DNA of 36,774 nt. Source: Bacteroidota bacterium. Its GTDB lineage: Bacteria; Bacteroidota; Bacteroidia; SXHM01. Position 1 is the first letter of the stretch; every line of letters begins with the position of its first letter. Shown here piece by piece: positions 7,203 to 36,420 of the stretch. The notes beneath the pieces are model-generated. The model had not been told where the DNA came from. It did no database searches and saw nothing but the letters and a program-made list of their open reading frames with translations. Location: contig CANKAM010000036.1 of assembly GCA_947479755.1 (NCBI GenBank), forward strand, positions 1-36,774, written 5' to 3'. The position numbers and the translations under genes were made by a program.

Positions 7203-9869
7203 CTACTTCAGCACTATTTTTCCTCTTGCCTGAATTTTGGTTTTGCTGTTAAGCAATTCAAAGAAATACATACCTGCGTTTAGGTTTTTCTTTTCAATAA
7301 AAACTCTGCCGCTACTGATATTGCTGTAGTTCTGCACTACCCTACCCTGCACATCTATAATAGTTAGCGTATAAACTTCATTTGCAGTTGGAGTAAATTC
7401 AAGAACAGCAACATCACTGAAAGGATTCGGATACACACTTACATTCATGGCCTCATCGGCAGTGTAAATACTGTTTGTTGAATCGTGATCAATAATTTCA
7501 ATGCAATAATCTTCCACCTCACCATAGTTAAACGGATTGGAACAAGCCTGCGGTGCGCTGCTGAACTTCATGCTTACACGCATTCTTGTACTGCCCAATG
7601 TTGCAGTTGCAGGAACGGCAAATGTTCCGGTTACGGCTGCCGTTGTAGTTCCTGAAGCAAACACATTTTCGCCTGCATCACCAAAATTTCCGTTTTGGTT
7701 GTAGTCAATCCACACACGGAAAACTTCATTAAAACTGCCGCCAGGAAAACCCGGAGTTAGTATGATGTTATAAGTCTGGTTTTGCCCCAAAACAGTTGAA
7801 GCATCTGTATAATCACCATAACCATCATCAGATCCTGAAGCATTGTCAATTTCGTTTAGTTCTACATTGGCTATCCATTCTTCGGTAGCATCCTCACTTT
7901 TTGATTCACAATAAATAAGGTCGGTGCATGCTCCGCATCCTTTTGTAGTGAATGTGAAGATGTCAGAATAATCTGTTAAGCCGGTATCACAAAGCGTTTG
8001 AACACGAAACTCATACTCTTTGCAGGGTTCTAAATCCAATACTACTAATGAATCTACTGCTATTCCTGTAAAACTATTTGTCCATACATTAGAACCAGCA
8101 ACACGTAAATCTATGTTATAGGAGTTGGCAGCAAGTAAATCGCCCCAGTTTAGTGTTACAGTACTGTCAGTAATTGAGGTGACGCCTAAATTTGAAGGCG
8201 GTAGGCAGCAGCCATCAGTGGTGAATACATGGCTTTGAGACCAGTTGCTGCTATCGGTATCACAGATAGAAAGTACCTGAAACTCATATTCGGTGCAGGC
8301 AACCAAATCTGTAACAGAAAAAGGTGATGTTACTCCGGGAGCAAATGTCCAGATGTTGCTGCCTGTTGGGCGGTATAGCAAATCAAAACCTACGGTGCCG
8401 GGAGCACTGCTCCAGGTGAATGTAGCACCTGTATCACTTATAGTATTTGTAGTTAATCCAAACGGTGTAACGCAGCCGCCTGCGCTGCAATTGTTGAGCA
8501 ATTCATTTACTGCATTAAAAACATTCAGTCTTCCACCTGTTACGGTAATGTTATTAAGACTTGCGTTAGGGTCAACGCCATCTAAGATGTATTGTTTTAT
8601 CTGCAAGGCTGCTGCTGCAGGGTCGGCATAAGCTAATGCCATAAAGGAGGAACATTGAACAGAATACAGCAATCCAATTGTACCTGCTACATGGGGTGTT
8701 GCGCCTGATGTTCCGCCAAAACTTGCATAACCATTTGGATAGGAAACAGTGTGCGTTCCTTCGCCCGGTGCACCTAGGTCAATGGTGGTAAGACCGTACC
8801 CTGCCTGTGTTACTTTATTATCATCGTCATTGGTGTTAGTAACGGATATCAGCCAGTCGCTTGGACAAGCAGTGGGCAAATCACCGAAGTTATCCACGTT
8901 CTGGTTGCCGTTGATGGTTGCTCCTGCACTCAGTACACCGCAAGCACCTAAGGAATCATACATAGCGCACCACAGCGGTGCATCAGCTGGCTGACCACCA
9001 TCAATTCCCCATGATGAGTTGGTGGCAACTACAAAAGCACCTTCAGTTCCTCCGCTTTGGTTGTAGCGTTTGCGCATTACAAAGGGATACGTATAGGCTT
9101 CCACTGCCTGAGCTTCATTTCCTCCGCCCACAACAATCATTAGTTTCACGTTCCAGTTTACACCGGTTACTCCTACTCCGTTATTTCCTTTAGCACCTAC
9201 AATACCGGCTACACAACTTCCGTGACCTCCTCCACCAACTCCGCCTGTAATATCATCGGTATTTGCATCTGCATTCCAGCCGCGGTAATCATCTTCGTAA
9301 CCGTTGCCGTCATCATCAACATTGTTATTGGGTATTTCATCATAATTGAACCATTTATTCCCCGCAAAGTCGGGGTGTGTGCCGCTTAAACCATCATCAA
9401 CTATGCAGACAACAATCGTATCTCCGAAAGCAGTTATTCCTCCTGTGGTAATGTCCCAGGCAAGGTCGGCATCAATATCGGCACCGGCTGTGCCACCGCT
9501 TTGCCCTGTGTTGATGTATTGCCATTGTTGGTTGAACTGCGGATCGTTGGGAACGGTAGAACGGTAATAGATGTGGTGATTTAATTGTGCTTCGTTTACT
9601 GCGGGATGAAATTTTACTGCATTCAACACACGTTCCTGATTTACTCCTTCGTAGTTGTATTCCACGAGCCAGATATTCATGGGAGGTGAAATAAATTTCT
9701 TTGCACTAAGTTTGATGTTGCTGCCTTCAAAGGTTTGGAAACTGCGGCTTACAGCTTCTATGCTTGTGCCTTGTTTGATCTGAACAAGGAGCTGACCATT
9801 GACGAAAGGCTGAGAAAAAGTGAAGCAAGAAGTAAGAAGCAGGATGCAAGATGTGAGGAGTAAACGCAT
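7203..9869 (-). CDS. Secreted subtilisin-like protease with FN3, GEVED and T9SS domains
   Basis: The 888-residue protein is predicted to be secreted by T9SS. Order of parts: signal peptide (1-20, cleavage probably after FSQ); prodomain-like region (~25-100); S8 subtilase domain with D158 (VDDG), H216 (GGGHGS), N284 (NSSWG) and S388 (GGTSGATPHVAG); two fibronectin type III domains (~466-552 and 556-643); a GEVED domain (~655-795; WIDYNQNGNFGDAGE, FNYGEVEDYCIEI); and a T9SS type A sorting domain (~810-888; VYPNPFSD). The catalytic set is complete. LTSC at 12-15 mimics a lipobox, but T9SS cargo normally uses signal peptidase I. T9SS machinery genes are not in this window. It likely degrades external protein (inference). 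Confidence 0.94.
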   Translation of the reverse strand: MRLLLTSCILLLTSCFTFSQPFVNGQLLVQIKQGTSIEAVSRSFQTFEGSNIKLSAKKFISPPMNIWLVEYNYEGVNQERVLNAVKFHPAVNEAQLNHHIYYRSTVPNDPQFNQQWQYINTGQSGGTAGADIDADLAWDITTGGITAFGDTIVVCIVDDGLSGTHPDFAGNKWFNYDEIPNNNVDDDGNGYEDDYRGWNADANTDDITGGVGGGGHGSCVAGIVGAKGNNGVGVTGVNWNVKLMIVVGGGNEAQAVEAYTYPFVMRKRYNQSGGTEGAFVVATNSSWGIDGGQPADAPLWCAMYDSLGACGVLSAGATINGNQNVDNFGDLPTACPSDWLISVTNTNDDDNKVTQAGYGLTTIDLGAPGEGTHTVSYPNGYASFGGTSGATPHVAGTIGLLYSVQCSSFMALAYADPAAAALQIKQYILDGVDPNASLNNITVTGGRLNVFNAVNELLNNCSAGGCVTPFGLTTNTISDTGATFTWSSAPGTVGFDLLYRPTGSNIWTFAPGVTSPFSVTDLVACTEYEFQVLSICDTDSSNWSQSHVFTTDGCCLPPSNLGVTSITDSTVTLNWGDLLAANSYNIDLRVAGSNVWTNSFTGIAVDSLVVLDLEPCKEYEFRVQTLCDTGLTDYSDIFTFTTKGCGACTDLIYCESKSEDATEEWIANVELNEIDNASGSDDGYGDYTDASTVLGQNQTYNIILTPGFPGGSFNEVFRVWIDYNQNGNFGDAGENVFASGTTTAAVTGTFAVPATATLGSTRMRVSMKFSSAPQACSNPFNYGEVEDYCIEIIDHDSTNSIYTADEAMNVSVYPNPFSDVAVLEFTPTANEVYTLTIIDVQGRVVQNYSNISSGRVFIEKKNLNAGMYFFELLNSKTKIQARGKIVLK

Positions 9870-9952
9870 AGTTTTATATAATAAGTTTAGATGTAACAGA
9901 TATTGACAGCCGAGCCAATATTACATATTACATTTTACATCTTAAATTGTTT

Positions 9953-10256: not shown

Positions 10257-10362
10257 TAGCCACAAGCCAAGTAGCTAATTAGGTGTATAGTTTCTATTAC
10301 AATTTTCATTTACTGTTTGGCTTCCTACTATTTGGGTACTTGGCTATTTCACTATGTGGCTA
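10257..10362. repeat. Inverted TAGCCACA/AGCCAAGTA repeat overlapping recF stop
   Basis: TAGCCACA (10257-10264) and AGCCAAGTA (10265-10273) recur in inverted orientation as TACTTGGCT (10337-10345) and TGTGGCTA (10355-10362), with a 9-base insertion between the right-hand blocks. The recF stop codon (10344-10346) lies inside the right arm. A related GGCTA-rich tract occurs at 32987-33019, also over a stop codon. Confidence 0.6.
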
Positions 10363-11459
10363 TTAATTATTTCTCCTTTATCCACCTCAAATATCTTCAC
10401 ATTCCGGTCGCTGTTTTTAAATATGTTTTTGAGGCGGTCAGTGTGAGTGTCGGTGATGAATACCTGTCCGAAGTTTTCGTTGCTTACTTTTTCAATCAGT
10501 CGTGTGATGCGGGTTTCGTCCAGCTTGTCGAAGATATCATCGAGTAATAACAGGGGAGCATAGCCTTTTACCTGTTTCATAAAATCGAATTCTGCCAGTT
10601 TCAGGGCTACCAGAAATGATTTCTGCTGTCCCTGCGAACCATATCGTTTTACGGGATAGGTATTTATTTCAAAGTTTAAGTCGTCTTTGTGTATGCCCAC
10701 GGTGGTGTATTGCAGAATGCGGTCGCGGTTAAATGCGTTACGCAACTGTTCAGCAAAGTTAGCTTTTTCCAATTGCGATTCATAGGTAATGTTTACGGCC
10801 TCAGTATCGCCAGATATATGGCTATAATAGGCAAGAAACGAAGGAAGGGTATTGAGAATAAATTCCTTTCGTTTTTCAAATATCTGTTGTCCGTAGTTAA
10901 CGAGTTGGTTGTCCCAAATCTCGAACTGCTCGTAGTCTATGTTGCTTTGTCCTGCAGTTGTTTTTAACAAGGCGTTGCGCTGACTAAGGGCGTTGTTGTA
11001 GTTAATGAGGTTATAGAGGTACTCGCGGTTGTATTGCGAAACCACGGAGTCTATAAATTTTCTGCGCACCTCGCTGCCGCCTGTTACCAGCTCGGTATCG
11101 GCAGGTGAAACCATAACGATTGGGATTAAGCCGATGTGCTCGGCAAGGCGGGGATATTCTTTTTTGTTGCGTTTGAATTGCTTTTTGGTGTTACGCTTTT
11201 GTCCGCAATAGATGTTTTCTTCTTCTCCGTTGATCAGAAATTTGCCTTCTACTACAAAAAAGGCTTCATCATGACGGATGTTCTGGCTGTCAACAGGATT
11301 GAAATAGCTTTTGCACATGGCCAGGTAGTGCATGGCATCCAGCAGACCGGTTTTGCCGGCTCCGTTATTGCCCGTAAAGCAGTTTACCTGTGGTGAAAAC
11401 AACAGGTCGGCCTGGGCTATATTGCGGAAATTGATGAGAGAGAGGCTTTGGAGATGCAC
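10344..11459 (-). CDS. recF: DNA repair and replication ATPase RecF
   Basis: RecF binds gapped DNA and helps RecO/RecR load RecA. The 371-residue length is normal. The start HLQSLSLINFRNI is the family signature; the Walker A motif GNNGAGKT is at residues 30-37; the ABC-type signature YGSQGQQKS at ~273-281; and Walker B LLLLDDIFDKLDE at ~303-315. Start is GTG, chosen because it places LSLINFRN at the usual position and lies only 7 bases from a TAACTTTG element, implying a nearly leaderless transcript. The last few codons (NSHIVK) and stop are encoded by a GGCTA-type intergenic repeat, so the C-terminus may have been reshaped by it. Confidence 0.96.
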   Translation of the reverse strand: MHLQSLSLINFRNIAQADLLFSPQVNCFTGNNGAGKTGLLDAMHYLAMCKSYFNPVDSQNIRHDEAFFVVEGKFLINGEEENIYCGQKRNTKKQFKRNKKEYPRLAEHIGLIPIVMVSPADTELVTGGSEVRRKFIDSVVSQYNREYLYNLINYNNALSQRNALLKTTAGQSNIDYEQFEIWDNQLVNYGQQIFEKRKEFILNTLPSFLAYYSHISGDTEAVNITYESQLEKANFAEQLRNAFNRDRILQYTTVGIHKDDLNFEINTYPVKRYGSQGQQKSFLVALKLAEFDFMKQVKGYAPLLLLDDIFDKLDETRITRLIEKVSNENFGQVFITDTHTDRLKNIFKNSDRNVKIFEVDKGEIINSHIVK

Positions 11460-11474: not shown

Positions 11475-11515
11475 GGAAATGGGAATTAAGAATTAACAGC
11501 TGATAAAGAAAAAGT

Positions 11516-11765
11516 CAACCACTGCCCACTCGTTGACAACCCACCATCACCAATGGGCAACCGTTGCCAATACAGGGGCAACGGCTCAGCACCGGAGGGC
11601 AATCACTGCCAACGCATGGGCAATCATTCATCACGGGTGGGCAAAGGCTGCCAACGCATTGGCAACCGCTCACCACACATGGGCAATCATTCACCACAAA
11701 TGGGCAACAGTTCCCCTCGCGTGAGCAAGGGCTCACCACCGGTGTGGAACGGTTGCCCACCCCTG
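11516..11765. repeat. Tandem array of about twelve degenerate 21-bp units
   Basis: Eleven units of exactly 21 bases start at 11516, 11537, 11558, 11579, 11600, 11621, 11642, 11663, 11684, 11705 and 11726; a partial twelfth begins at 11747. Most begin CAAC, CAAT or CAAG and end TGGG or similar. Units with TGCC in the middle alternate with units carrying CACCAC-like centres for the first eight, giving a 42-bp higher-order period. The array fills most of the 317-base gap between recF and the aminopeptidase gene. There are no unique spacers, so it is not CRISPR. Since 21 is a multiple of three, several frames stay open across it on both strands; these are not evidence of coding. Confidence 0.9.
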
Positions 11766-11776
11766 TTTTCTTGCTT

Positions 11777-13201
11777 TTATTTTATCTTATTAAACACCCC
11801 TTCCTGTTTCATCAGGGCCTCAATTTCGTCAGCCTTGCGGGGAGCAAGGGACGAAAGATTTTCGGGTTGACCTTCGGTAATGAGAATATCGTCTTCAATG
11901 CGCACACCAATGTTCCACCACTTTGGGTCGCAGTCACTTCCTTCGGCAATATAAATACCAGGTTCTACAGTAATTACACTATTTACCTTAAGCATGTCAT
12001 ACAGCCCTGCATCGTGCACATCTAAGCCCAAATAGTGCGAAGTACCGTGCATAAAATACTTGCGGTATTCGGCAGCTTCTTTAATGATTCCGAGTTCCAG
12101 TAGGCGGGCCTGCACCACCTCAACTGCAGCTTTGTGGGGAGCCATAAAGGGTTTGCCTTTCAGGCATTTTTCTATTCCGGCTGCTTGTGCATCATACACA
12201 ATCTCATAAATAGCCCTTTGCTCGGGCGAGAACTTGCCGTTAATGGGAATCGTGCGCGTAACATCGGCTGTGTAGCCGTGGTATTCGGCACCAATATCCG
12301 AAACCAGTAGTTCGGGGTTGTCTAAATGCTTGCGGTTAGTGGTATAATGCAAAACGCAAGAGTTTTCACCACTTCCCAATATGGAAGGAAAGCCTACATC
12401 TTCGGCTCCTTTTACTTTAAAGAAAAACTCAACAATGGCTTCGCTCTGGTATTCGGTCATCCCAGGTTCCAGTGCTTTCATCAGTTCAATCTCGGCCTCG
12501 CAGGTCATGGTTATGGCTTTGCGGAGCAATACAAGTTCTTCCTGCAACTTTATTTCGCGCAGGCTTGCCATCATTACTTCCAATCCTGCCACATCAGGTG
12601 AGGCGCGTTGTGTGTTTTTCTGAAACGTCTGTATCAGGTCATATAAATCACCATTCTCACCGGTTTCGTCACGTACATCGTTAAATATCTTGCTGTTAAA
12701 AACCTTATCAAACTTACCAAAGTCAATTCCTGATTTTTGAAAATCATCGTTTACCAAAGCGGGTTTAATGCCTAACTGTGCTTCCACACCATCCGTTCCC
12801 AGTCTGCGGCCTGTCCATACCTCACTGGCAGGGTTGCGGCTTTGCACAAAAATCATTTCGCTGTTGCCATCGGCAAACTTCTGTTTGTCTTTGAAAACAA
12901 CCAGAACTGCATTGGGCTCGGTTAGTCCGGTAAGGTAATAAAAGTCAGGATCCTGATGGTATTCAAAGTCCACATCGTTGGCGCGGTTACGCACAGGAGC
13001 CGCAAAGAAAACTGCAACAGAGCCTTCGGGCATCATAGCGCGCAGGGCTTCTCTCCTGCCCTTGTGAAAGTCTTTATTCAGCAAATCCTCGTCATAGCGG
13101 CTGGGCTTCTTCTCACTTATAACCTTAGGCGGAAGAGTTTCCTGTGCTGAAACAGAAATAACTGCCGAAAGAATAAGGAAAAATGAAAGTTTGATTTGCA
13201 T
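11777..13201 (-). CDS. Exported Xaa-Pro aminopeptidase (M24 family)
   Basis: This metallopeptidase removes N-terminal residues preceding proline. The 474-residue protein has a signal peptide (QIKLSFFLILSAVISVSA, cleaved near AQ), an aminopeptidase P N-terminal domain (~40-200; FYYLTGLTEPNAVLVVF) and an M24 pita-bread domain (~215-460). Predicted metal ligands are D302 and D313 (SDIGAEYHGYTADVTR), H389 (HGTSHYLG), E413 (VEPG) and E436 (VRIEDD), with H396 also conserved. I start at the ATG at 13201 because it gives a clean signal peptide; the upstream ATG at 13222 lies inside the rpmB terminator hairpin. Location is probably periplasmic. It may act with secreted proteases in peptide use (inference). 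Confidence 0.93.
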   Translation of the reverse strand: MQIKLSFFLILSAVISVSAQETLPPKVISEKKPSRYDEDLLNKDFHKGRREALRAMMPEGSVAVFFAAPVRNRANDVDFEYHQDPDFYYLTGLTEPNAVLVVFKDKQKFADGNSEMIFVQSRNPASEVWTGRRLGTDGVEAQLGIKPALVNDDFQKSGIDFGKFDKVFNSKIFNDVRDETGENGDLYDLIQTFQKNTQRASPDVAGLEVMMASLREIKLQEELVLLRKAITMTCEAEIELMKALEPGMTEYQSEAIVEFFFKVKGAEDVGFPSILGSGENSCVLHYTTNRKHLDNPELLVSDIGAEYHGYTADVTRTIPINGKFSPEQRAIYEIVYDAQAAGIEKCLKGKPFMAPHKAAVEVVQARLLELGIIKEAAEYRKYFMHGTSHYLGLDVHDAGLYDMLKVNSVITVEPGIYIAEGSDCDPKWWNIGVRIEDDILITEGQPENLSSLAPRKADEIEALMKQEGVFNKIK

Positions 13202-13203
13202 AA

Positions 13204-13240
13204 ATAAAAAAAGCGTTGCCATGCAAAGATAGCAACGCTT
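13204..13240 (-). terminator. rpmB terminator with pepP-like promoter in its loop
   Basis: AAGCGTTGC (13211-13219) and GCAACGCTT (13232-13240) form a perfect 9-bp stem with a 12-base loop. Read on the minus strand, a run of T follows (13204-13210), so it terminates rpmB. The loop contains TATCTTTG. Confidence 0.85.
13224..13231 (-). promoter_or_regulatory. TATCTTTG -7 element for the aminopeptidase gene
   Basis: An exact TAnnTTTG match lies 22 bases upstream of the aminopeptidase ATG at 13201 and inside the loop of the rpmB terminator. No clear -33 box is seen. Confidence 0.45.
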
Positions 13241-14969: not shown

Positions 14970-15350
14970 ATGAACAAAAAAATAATCCAAACCGATAAAG
15001 CTCCTGCACCAATAGGACCTTACAGTCAAGCTGTAATAGTAAATAACATGCTGTATGTATCAGGACAAATTGCCATTAACCCTGCGACAGGACAATTGGT
15101 AATGGACAATATCATAGAAGAAACACAGCAGGTAATGAACAACCTGAAAGCCATACTTGAAGCTGCAGGCATGGATTTTAGTAACGTGATAAAGACTACC
15201 ATTTTCTTAAAGGACATGAATCAGTTCAGCAGTGTAAACGAAGTTTATGGAGCGTTCTTTAAAAGCGATTTTCCTGCGCGTGAAACGGTGCAGGTGTCGG
15301 CCTTGCCTAAGTTTGTGAATGTGGAGATTTCGGTGGTGGCAAGTATGTAA
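14970..15350 (+). CDS. ridA: RidA family reactive imine/enamine deaminase
   Basis: RidA hydrolyses reactive 2-aminoacrylate and related imines formed by PLP enzymes, protecting those enzymes. The 126-residue length is standard. Family motifs are visible: APAPIGPYSQA near the start with Y18, VSGQIAINP, KTTIFLKDM, and the substrate-carboxylate-binding R104 in FPARETVQV, followed by VNVEISVVA with E119. These residues mark the active RidA subgroup. It is cytoplasmic. It is a single gene facing the M61 peptidase; the 71-base convergent gap holds a 12-bp inverted repeat. Confidence 0.94.
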   Translation: MNKKIIQTDKAPAPIGPYSQAVIVNNMLYVSGQIAINPATGQLVMDNIIEETQQVMNNLKAILEAAGMDFSNVIKTTIFLKDMNQFSSVNEVYGAFFKSDFPARETVQVSALPKFVNVEISVVASM

Positions 15351-15361
15351 TAAGTAAGATG

Positions 15362-15412
15362 TAATATTTAATATCGAGAAGAGGGTGACCAAATATTACC
15401 TATTAAATATTA
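15362..15412. repeat. 12-bp inverted repeat between convergent genes
   Basis: TAATATTTAATA (15362-15373) recurs as its exact reverse complement at 15401-15412, with 27 bases between. A/T-only arms between ridA and the M61 gene could form a weak hairpin in both transcripts. Confidence 0.5.
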
Positions 15413-15421
15413 ATTATTAGA

Positions 15422-36283: not shown

Positions 36284-36420
36284 GACCCCCTAACCCCCTC
36301 CTTGAAAAAAGGAGGGGGAACGTAAACCGCCAGTTTTTTCAACGCATAATTTTAGTTCAACGCGGGCTGCAAGTTCCTTCCCTTTTTAAGGGAAGGTGCC
36401 CAAAGGGCGGAAGGGTTTCA
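36284..36420. repeat. Pair of REP-like G/C-rich hairpins
   Basis: CCCCCTCCTT (36294-36303) pairs perfectly with AAGGAGGGGG (36309-36318). CCTTCCCTT (36376-36384) pairs perfectly with AAGGGAAGG (36388-36396). The second is followed by GGGCGGAAGGG. Both lie between the dehydratase stop and the DUF559 gene. Bacteroidota commonly carry dispersed CCCCCTAACCCCC-type repeats like these. Confidence 0.85.

Follow-up and report, generated by a model that had tools for sequence, protein, structure and literature searches.

The junction between recF and a Xaa-Pro aminopeptidase gene (called pepP here) in a Bacteroidota bacterium raises the question of why a tandem array keeps an exact 21-bp period while its sequence drifts, and what might read it. 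The window analysed, i.e., the whole stretch of 36,774 nucleotides from contig CANKAM010000036.1, carries recF at 10344-11459 (minus strand; open reading frame with an NCBIfam TIGR00611 match of 337 bits against a cut-off of 172) and pepP at 11777-13222 (minus strand; open reading frame with the Pfam domains Peptidase_M24 and AMP_N), confirming the location given in the original prediction. The array (11514-11765, no strand assigned) fills this junction, 55 bp from the recF start and 12 bp from the pepP stop. Eleven units of strictly 21 bp had been described; the exact length stands, while the count does not, as the profile gives twelve units (consensus GGCAAccgcTCCCCACncaTG) with no indels across them. 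The best lag-21 match of the array is 0.586 over 210 bp, against a mean of 0.368 (sd 0.013, maximum 0.41) in 200 first-order Markov simulations of the entire window, which corresponds to a z of about 17. A 42-bp higher-order pattern had also been proposed and is present, albeit modest: mean unit identity is 0.65 at distance 2 and 0.66 at distance 4, compared with 0.58 at distance 1, and TRF scores the 42-bp and 63-bp registers at 111 and 145 and the 21-bp register at 75. Columns 4-5 of the unit (the AA of GGCAA) are invariant, and the unit profile is palindromic, with a score of 0.74 that 0 of 500 column permutations reach; the GGCAAC-GTTGCC inverted blocks noticed earlier are real and belong to this general palindromy, an example being the palindromic block GGCAACCGTTGCC at 11556-11568 (no strand assigned). 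Clustering of conserved columns and 10.5-bp conservation are confined to a few arrays (window array p 0.034) and are not general. Elsewhere, the window contains short 7-bp tandem repeats (GAAGCAA, ATATTAC, TATGTAA, AAATATT) at 9822-9948 and 15344-15419, found at related loci too, and, at 36285-36321 (minus strand), a dispersed G-rich terminator-like repeat (CCCCCTCCTT..AAGGAGGGGGTTAGGGGGTGG) with several copies in the sampled genome (L119:1379-1435, L189 and L116).

The original prediction had treated the locus as a single array with one searchable unit, a view that proved too narrow. A blastn search of the unit against its own genome recovered only the window array itself, and a 63-bp profile likewise recovered only this array at E<0.01, the next-best matches being two further 21-bp arrays (C7:8244, E 0.012; C47:13642, E 0.077). 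Since the array sequence is essentially unique in the genome, a motif-free scan compared the DNA with itself at every lag, over 400 kb each from the own genome and from a congener (G003). Matches at lag 21 numbered 10 and 17, respectively, and a few of them are coding or low-complexity stretches rather than arrays of the window kind, whereas lags 19, 20, 22 and 23 gave 0-2; lags 42 and 63 rise along with 21, and the remaining multiples of 3 form a coding-repeat background. Another 400 kb of the own genome yielded just 4 more lag-21 matches and, therefore, the density of arrays, which rests on sampled stretches, is uneven; there may be enrichment at contig ends. Within genus g1, arrays occur in 40 of 300 random 3.7-kb pieces, and about half of them, the window array included, have no adjoining orphan gene. 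One intergenic region (L141:9359-9865) carries two adjoining 21-bp arrays with different motifs.

Array motifs are private to the locus, and similarity between arrays rises above the column-permuted null in few pairs only. The profile of the window array resembles those of the C47 array (p 0.011), located upstream of a further unassigned protein, and of the array at L118 (p 0.0005). Alternation of two subtypes at 42 bp is common among the arrays, and in three (L002, L027, L144) the strand flips mid-array with the phase kept. The retention of phase during sequence drift, first noticed in the window array, is thus seen in many other arrays and also at orthologous sites where the motif has been wholly replaced. 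The opposing outcome anticipated at the outset, namely a single copy, none in relatives and variable unit length, was looked for and not found, because relatives hold arrays of identical exact unit length with other motifs.

Turnover is visible at the recF-pepP junction itself. The own genome (G000) has a GGCA array and no gene; G006, with a pepP 95% identical, has a TTTCC array; G003 has a 313-aa orphan gene (family Y) followed by its own array; and G001 (98% identical) and G005 have a short spacer without an array. A second intergenic site (L123) varies among six species: two have a common motif with differing unit numbers, a third shows a different 21-bp motif, the fourth (L220, G005) has a 43-bp register instead of 42 when the printed sequence is read by eye, the fifth has weak periodicity only and the sixth is nearly spacer-free. 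A third site (L118:8009-9274, on C7 of the own genome) carries an in-frame 21-bp array that forms a heptad linker between the membrane helix and the outer-membrane-type domain of a membrane-anchored protein. Here the array is common to three species at 98% identity, while across four species the motifs differ, all being 21 bp and in frame with other heptads. Between close species, the differences at L118 are clustered as copies of neighbouring units, pointing to gene conversion, and units also move by whole copies.

The feature that gives these arrays a context is their association with orphan genes. As an independent test of linkage, three families were sought one by one in 295 Bacteroidia genomes: M (242 aa) was found in 31 of them, Y (313 aa) in 10 and F (228 aa) in 37. 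A 21/22-bp array lies nearby in 27 of 30 fetched M loci, 20 of 27 Y loci and 26 of 30 F loci, a sample that is phylogenetically non-independent and includes near-duplicate loci (L249/L250, L270/L271, L280/L290); several of the Y loci without an array are on truncated contigs. As controls, random 3.7-kb stretches of other genera contain an array in 3 of 100 cases, and pepP loci in 1 of 24 at 21 bp plus 2 of 24 at 22 bp. In the genus sample, an array occurs within 450 bp of 8 of 21 genes of array-linked families against 35 of 1014 others (p 6e-7), a figure biased upward because seed genes were included. The side of the array is characteristic as well: upstream for F (26/26, with locus L323 having a second array elsewhere), downstream for Y (16/20, the exceptions being partial matches) and mostly downstream for M (about 22/29, with six upstream). 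Each of the three F genes found in the complete genome G155 has an array upstream; these arrays have 18-21 units, with periods of 22, 22 and 21 bp. A further family, X, has arrays in only about 5 of 13 sampled homologs, mostly upstream. Near one F gene and its 21-bp array, a Cas9-like gene (RuvC_III and HNH domains, PADLOC Cas9) was observed (L139:3298-7370, G003).

No M, Y or F protein reaches a curated Pfam or NCBIfam cut-off, and searches of the linked families with PADLOC and PHROGs gave nothing convincing. F shows a weak fibronectin-type match, while X carries a carboxypeptidase-regulatory-like domain and has a poor structural model (pLDDT 53). M is predicted to fold into a helical bundle (AlphaFold pLDDT 86), for which the fold search returned no DNA-binding match and no solved or viral relative at E<0.1. 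M was not found in plasmids, nor an F homolog in phages. The other repeats near M, namely the G-rich terminator-like repeat and common short repeats, are not array-specific. M, Y and F are three unrelated families without curated assignment that are linked to 21/22-bp arrays.

The arrays of these families also differ in symmetry. Palindromy of the unit is significant (p<0.05) in 13 of 22 F arrays, against 1 of 23 M and 1 of 17 Y arrays, and in none of the X arrays tested; folding energies agree with this division (F versus M plus Y, p 0.0003). In 11 of 17 M loci, a terminator separates the end of the M gene from the array, placing the array there outside the M mRNA; the Y locus L276 has its terminator beyond the array. 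Sites on a fixed pitch are seen most clearly upstream of a gene for a Cro/C1-type HTH protein (HTH_26; L113:3549-4260), where about 14 exactly spaced (A/G)TTAATTG cores are kept in three species and the other unit columns are randomised or saturated. Several congeners show the same arrangement of HTH gene and array, which some genomes have twice. The in-phase strand flips and the 22-bp arrays speak for DNA rather than codons, and the earlier suggestion of about two helical turns per unit is compatible with the 21-bp arrays as well as the rarer 22-bp ones. Taken as a whole, the evidence favours arrays that are read as DNA, two helical turns per unit, by partners that would be symmetric for F and asymmetric for M and Y.

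On this basis, we propose, with the chances about evenly balanced, that the window array belongs, as a solo copy, to a class of cis-acting arrays in Bacteroidia whose members also occur in orphan-gene cassettes and act as double-stranded DNA putatively read by a protein. Such an array would comprise about 6-21 tandem units of 21 (sometimes 22) bp in exact phase, with a locus-private motif that turns over rapidly while the period stays. Many arrays would each form a cassette with a single orphan gene (of family M, Y, F, X, A or another), on a side largely fixed per family. A protein bound to the duplex every two helical turns, on one face, could build a nucleoprotein filament; its likeliest identity would be the product of the adjoining orphan gene or a regulator acting as its partner (at one array, for example, the HTH protein), and this binder may co-drift with its array while recombination homogenises the units. 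Counting against this proposal, the M proteins at L246 and L247 are 71% identical and yet the motif has changed completely, which is fast for a sequence-specific binder; the helical bundle of M, unlike known DNA-binding folds, and the many g1 arrays that have no orphan neighbour weigh against it too. Some arrays lie in reading frames as heptad linkers, as at L118, where DNA of this type is put to another use. The neighbours of the window array are recF and pepP, with no orphan gene adjoining, and it has the exact period and private motif that mark the class; it is perhaps a cassette remnant or a target in trans.

Among the alternatives, neutral minisatellites arising from clade-specific slippage or recombination with a 21-bp step would account for the whole-copy movement and gene conversion of units between close species, and for the many solo arrays of genus g1. 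This explanation is nonetheless unlikely, as it leaves aside the near-universal linkage to unrelated orphan families, with sides largely fixed and in genomes otherwise poor in arrays, as well as the family-specific symmetry of units and the letter-exact cores among randomised columns.

Slightly less probable still is a role of the window array as RNA, transcribed from pepP into recF, with hairpins that tune recF expression. The two genes lie on one strand with no terminator found between them, and the predicted folding energy of the pepP/recF strand is -124.8 kcal/mol, compared with -97.5 for shuffles (z -5.6). However, palindromic DNA folds on both strands (the other strand has a z of -3.2), and compared with column-permuted arrays of equal periodicity, z is about -3 on both. 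Furthermore, M and Y arrays have no excess folding, and G001 and G005 manage without an array at this junction.

A third possibility, which we regard as improbable, is that the arrays are processed into guide RNAs in a CRISPR- or TIGR-like manner; the private motif would be the guide, the period a processing ruler and the orphan protein the effector. A fixed ruler, private sequence and an adjoining conserved protein would all be expected of a guide array, and many arrays alternate at 42 bp. TIGR arrays consist of alternating 8-12-nt repeats and unique 9-nt spacers in a unit of about 36 nt, with a Nop-domain Tas protein (PMC12045711), and resemble the present arrays in being short (5-15 units), lying upstream or downstream of one protein gene and varying in sequence by locus (PMC12045711). 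In contrast, the arrays described here have a 21/22-bp unit without the layout of alternating repeats and unique spacers; units within an array are nearly identical, offering no unique spacer set. A Nop domain was sought by Pfam and NCBIfam in the window neighbours and the linked families and not found, and the latter have no Cas or Argonaute-like domain either. In most M loci, moreover, transcription of the gene stops before the array, and Rfam models gave no match in the window. CRISPR arrays share the regularity and the adjoining protein genes; the arrays here, however, have no division into spacer and repeat, and their period is far shorter.

The proposal that the arrays code for heptad-repeat peptides (21 bp being 7 codons) draws on the L118 array, kept in frame with different heptads in related species, and on the window array, which is open in one plus-strand frame (0 stops against 2.9 expected) but is not conserved in relatives. 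As a general account it is very improbable: stops summed over the tested arrays number 626 against 643 expected in the column-shuffled comparison, with no class-wide depletion, several arrays have stops in all six frames, 22-bp arrays exist, and the arrays of M, Y, F and X cassettes lie outside the gene. Selection for intrinsic curvature or flexibility, which would be motif-independent since any 21-bp repeat bends in phase, is equally remote. A 21-bp unit makes two helical turns, and the window array ranks in the 92nd-95th percentile for predicted curvature; over 87 arrays, however, neither predicted curvature nor A/T phasing exceeds that of column-permuted arrays with an equal period.

Known repeat systems of similar appearance were also considered. 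The BrickBuilt MITE of Porphyromonas gingivalis reportedly has a unit of 23 nt. It is likewise an intergenic minisatellite of Bacteroidia with short spacer-free units (PMC4596501), but it occurs as one sequence at 19 genomic sites, with a leader, a tail and inverted-repeat ends (PMC4596501). An element of this type was rejected, as the window repeat is not present at many sites (blastn and profile), each array has its own sequence, and the inverted repeats flanking the arrays as a set are no longer than those of control pairs. Iteron and centromere arrays are direct repeats spaced by about one or two helical turns, next to the gene for a small protein. The present arrays differ from these in being chromosomal, many per genome and unrelated in motif, in offering candidate binding sites only, and in having no replication or partition gene. 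Partition by a single protein is exemplified by StbA of R388 (PMC3098194). Overall, the coding, curvature, MITE, CRISPR and TIGR readings, when tested, fit worse than a DNA platform.

The open PMC literature yielded no description of gene-linked 21/22-bp arrays in Bacteroidetes. It is somewhat more probable than not, in our judgement, that Bacteroidia harbour undescribed systems that pair an orphan gene with an array of free sequence and fixed 21/22-bp period, with a symmetry set by the family, that would act as a multi-site platform or as RNA cut to a ruler, and that may also occur solo. The reproducible, class-wide link between orphan families and arrays conserved in spacing and free in sequence has the contours of a novel type of prokaryotic system, and the linkage provides a first functional handle on the orphan families. 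It also offers a natural case of rapid turnover of array motifs under fixed geometry, in outline like the evolution of centromeres or guide arrays.
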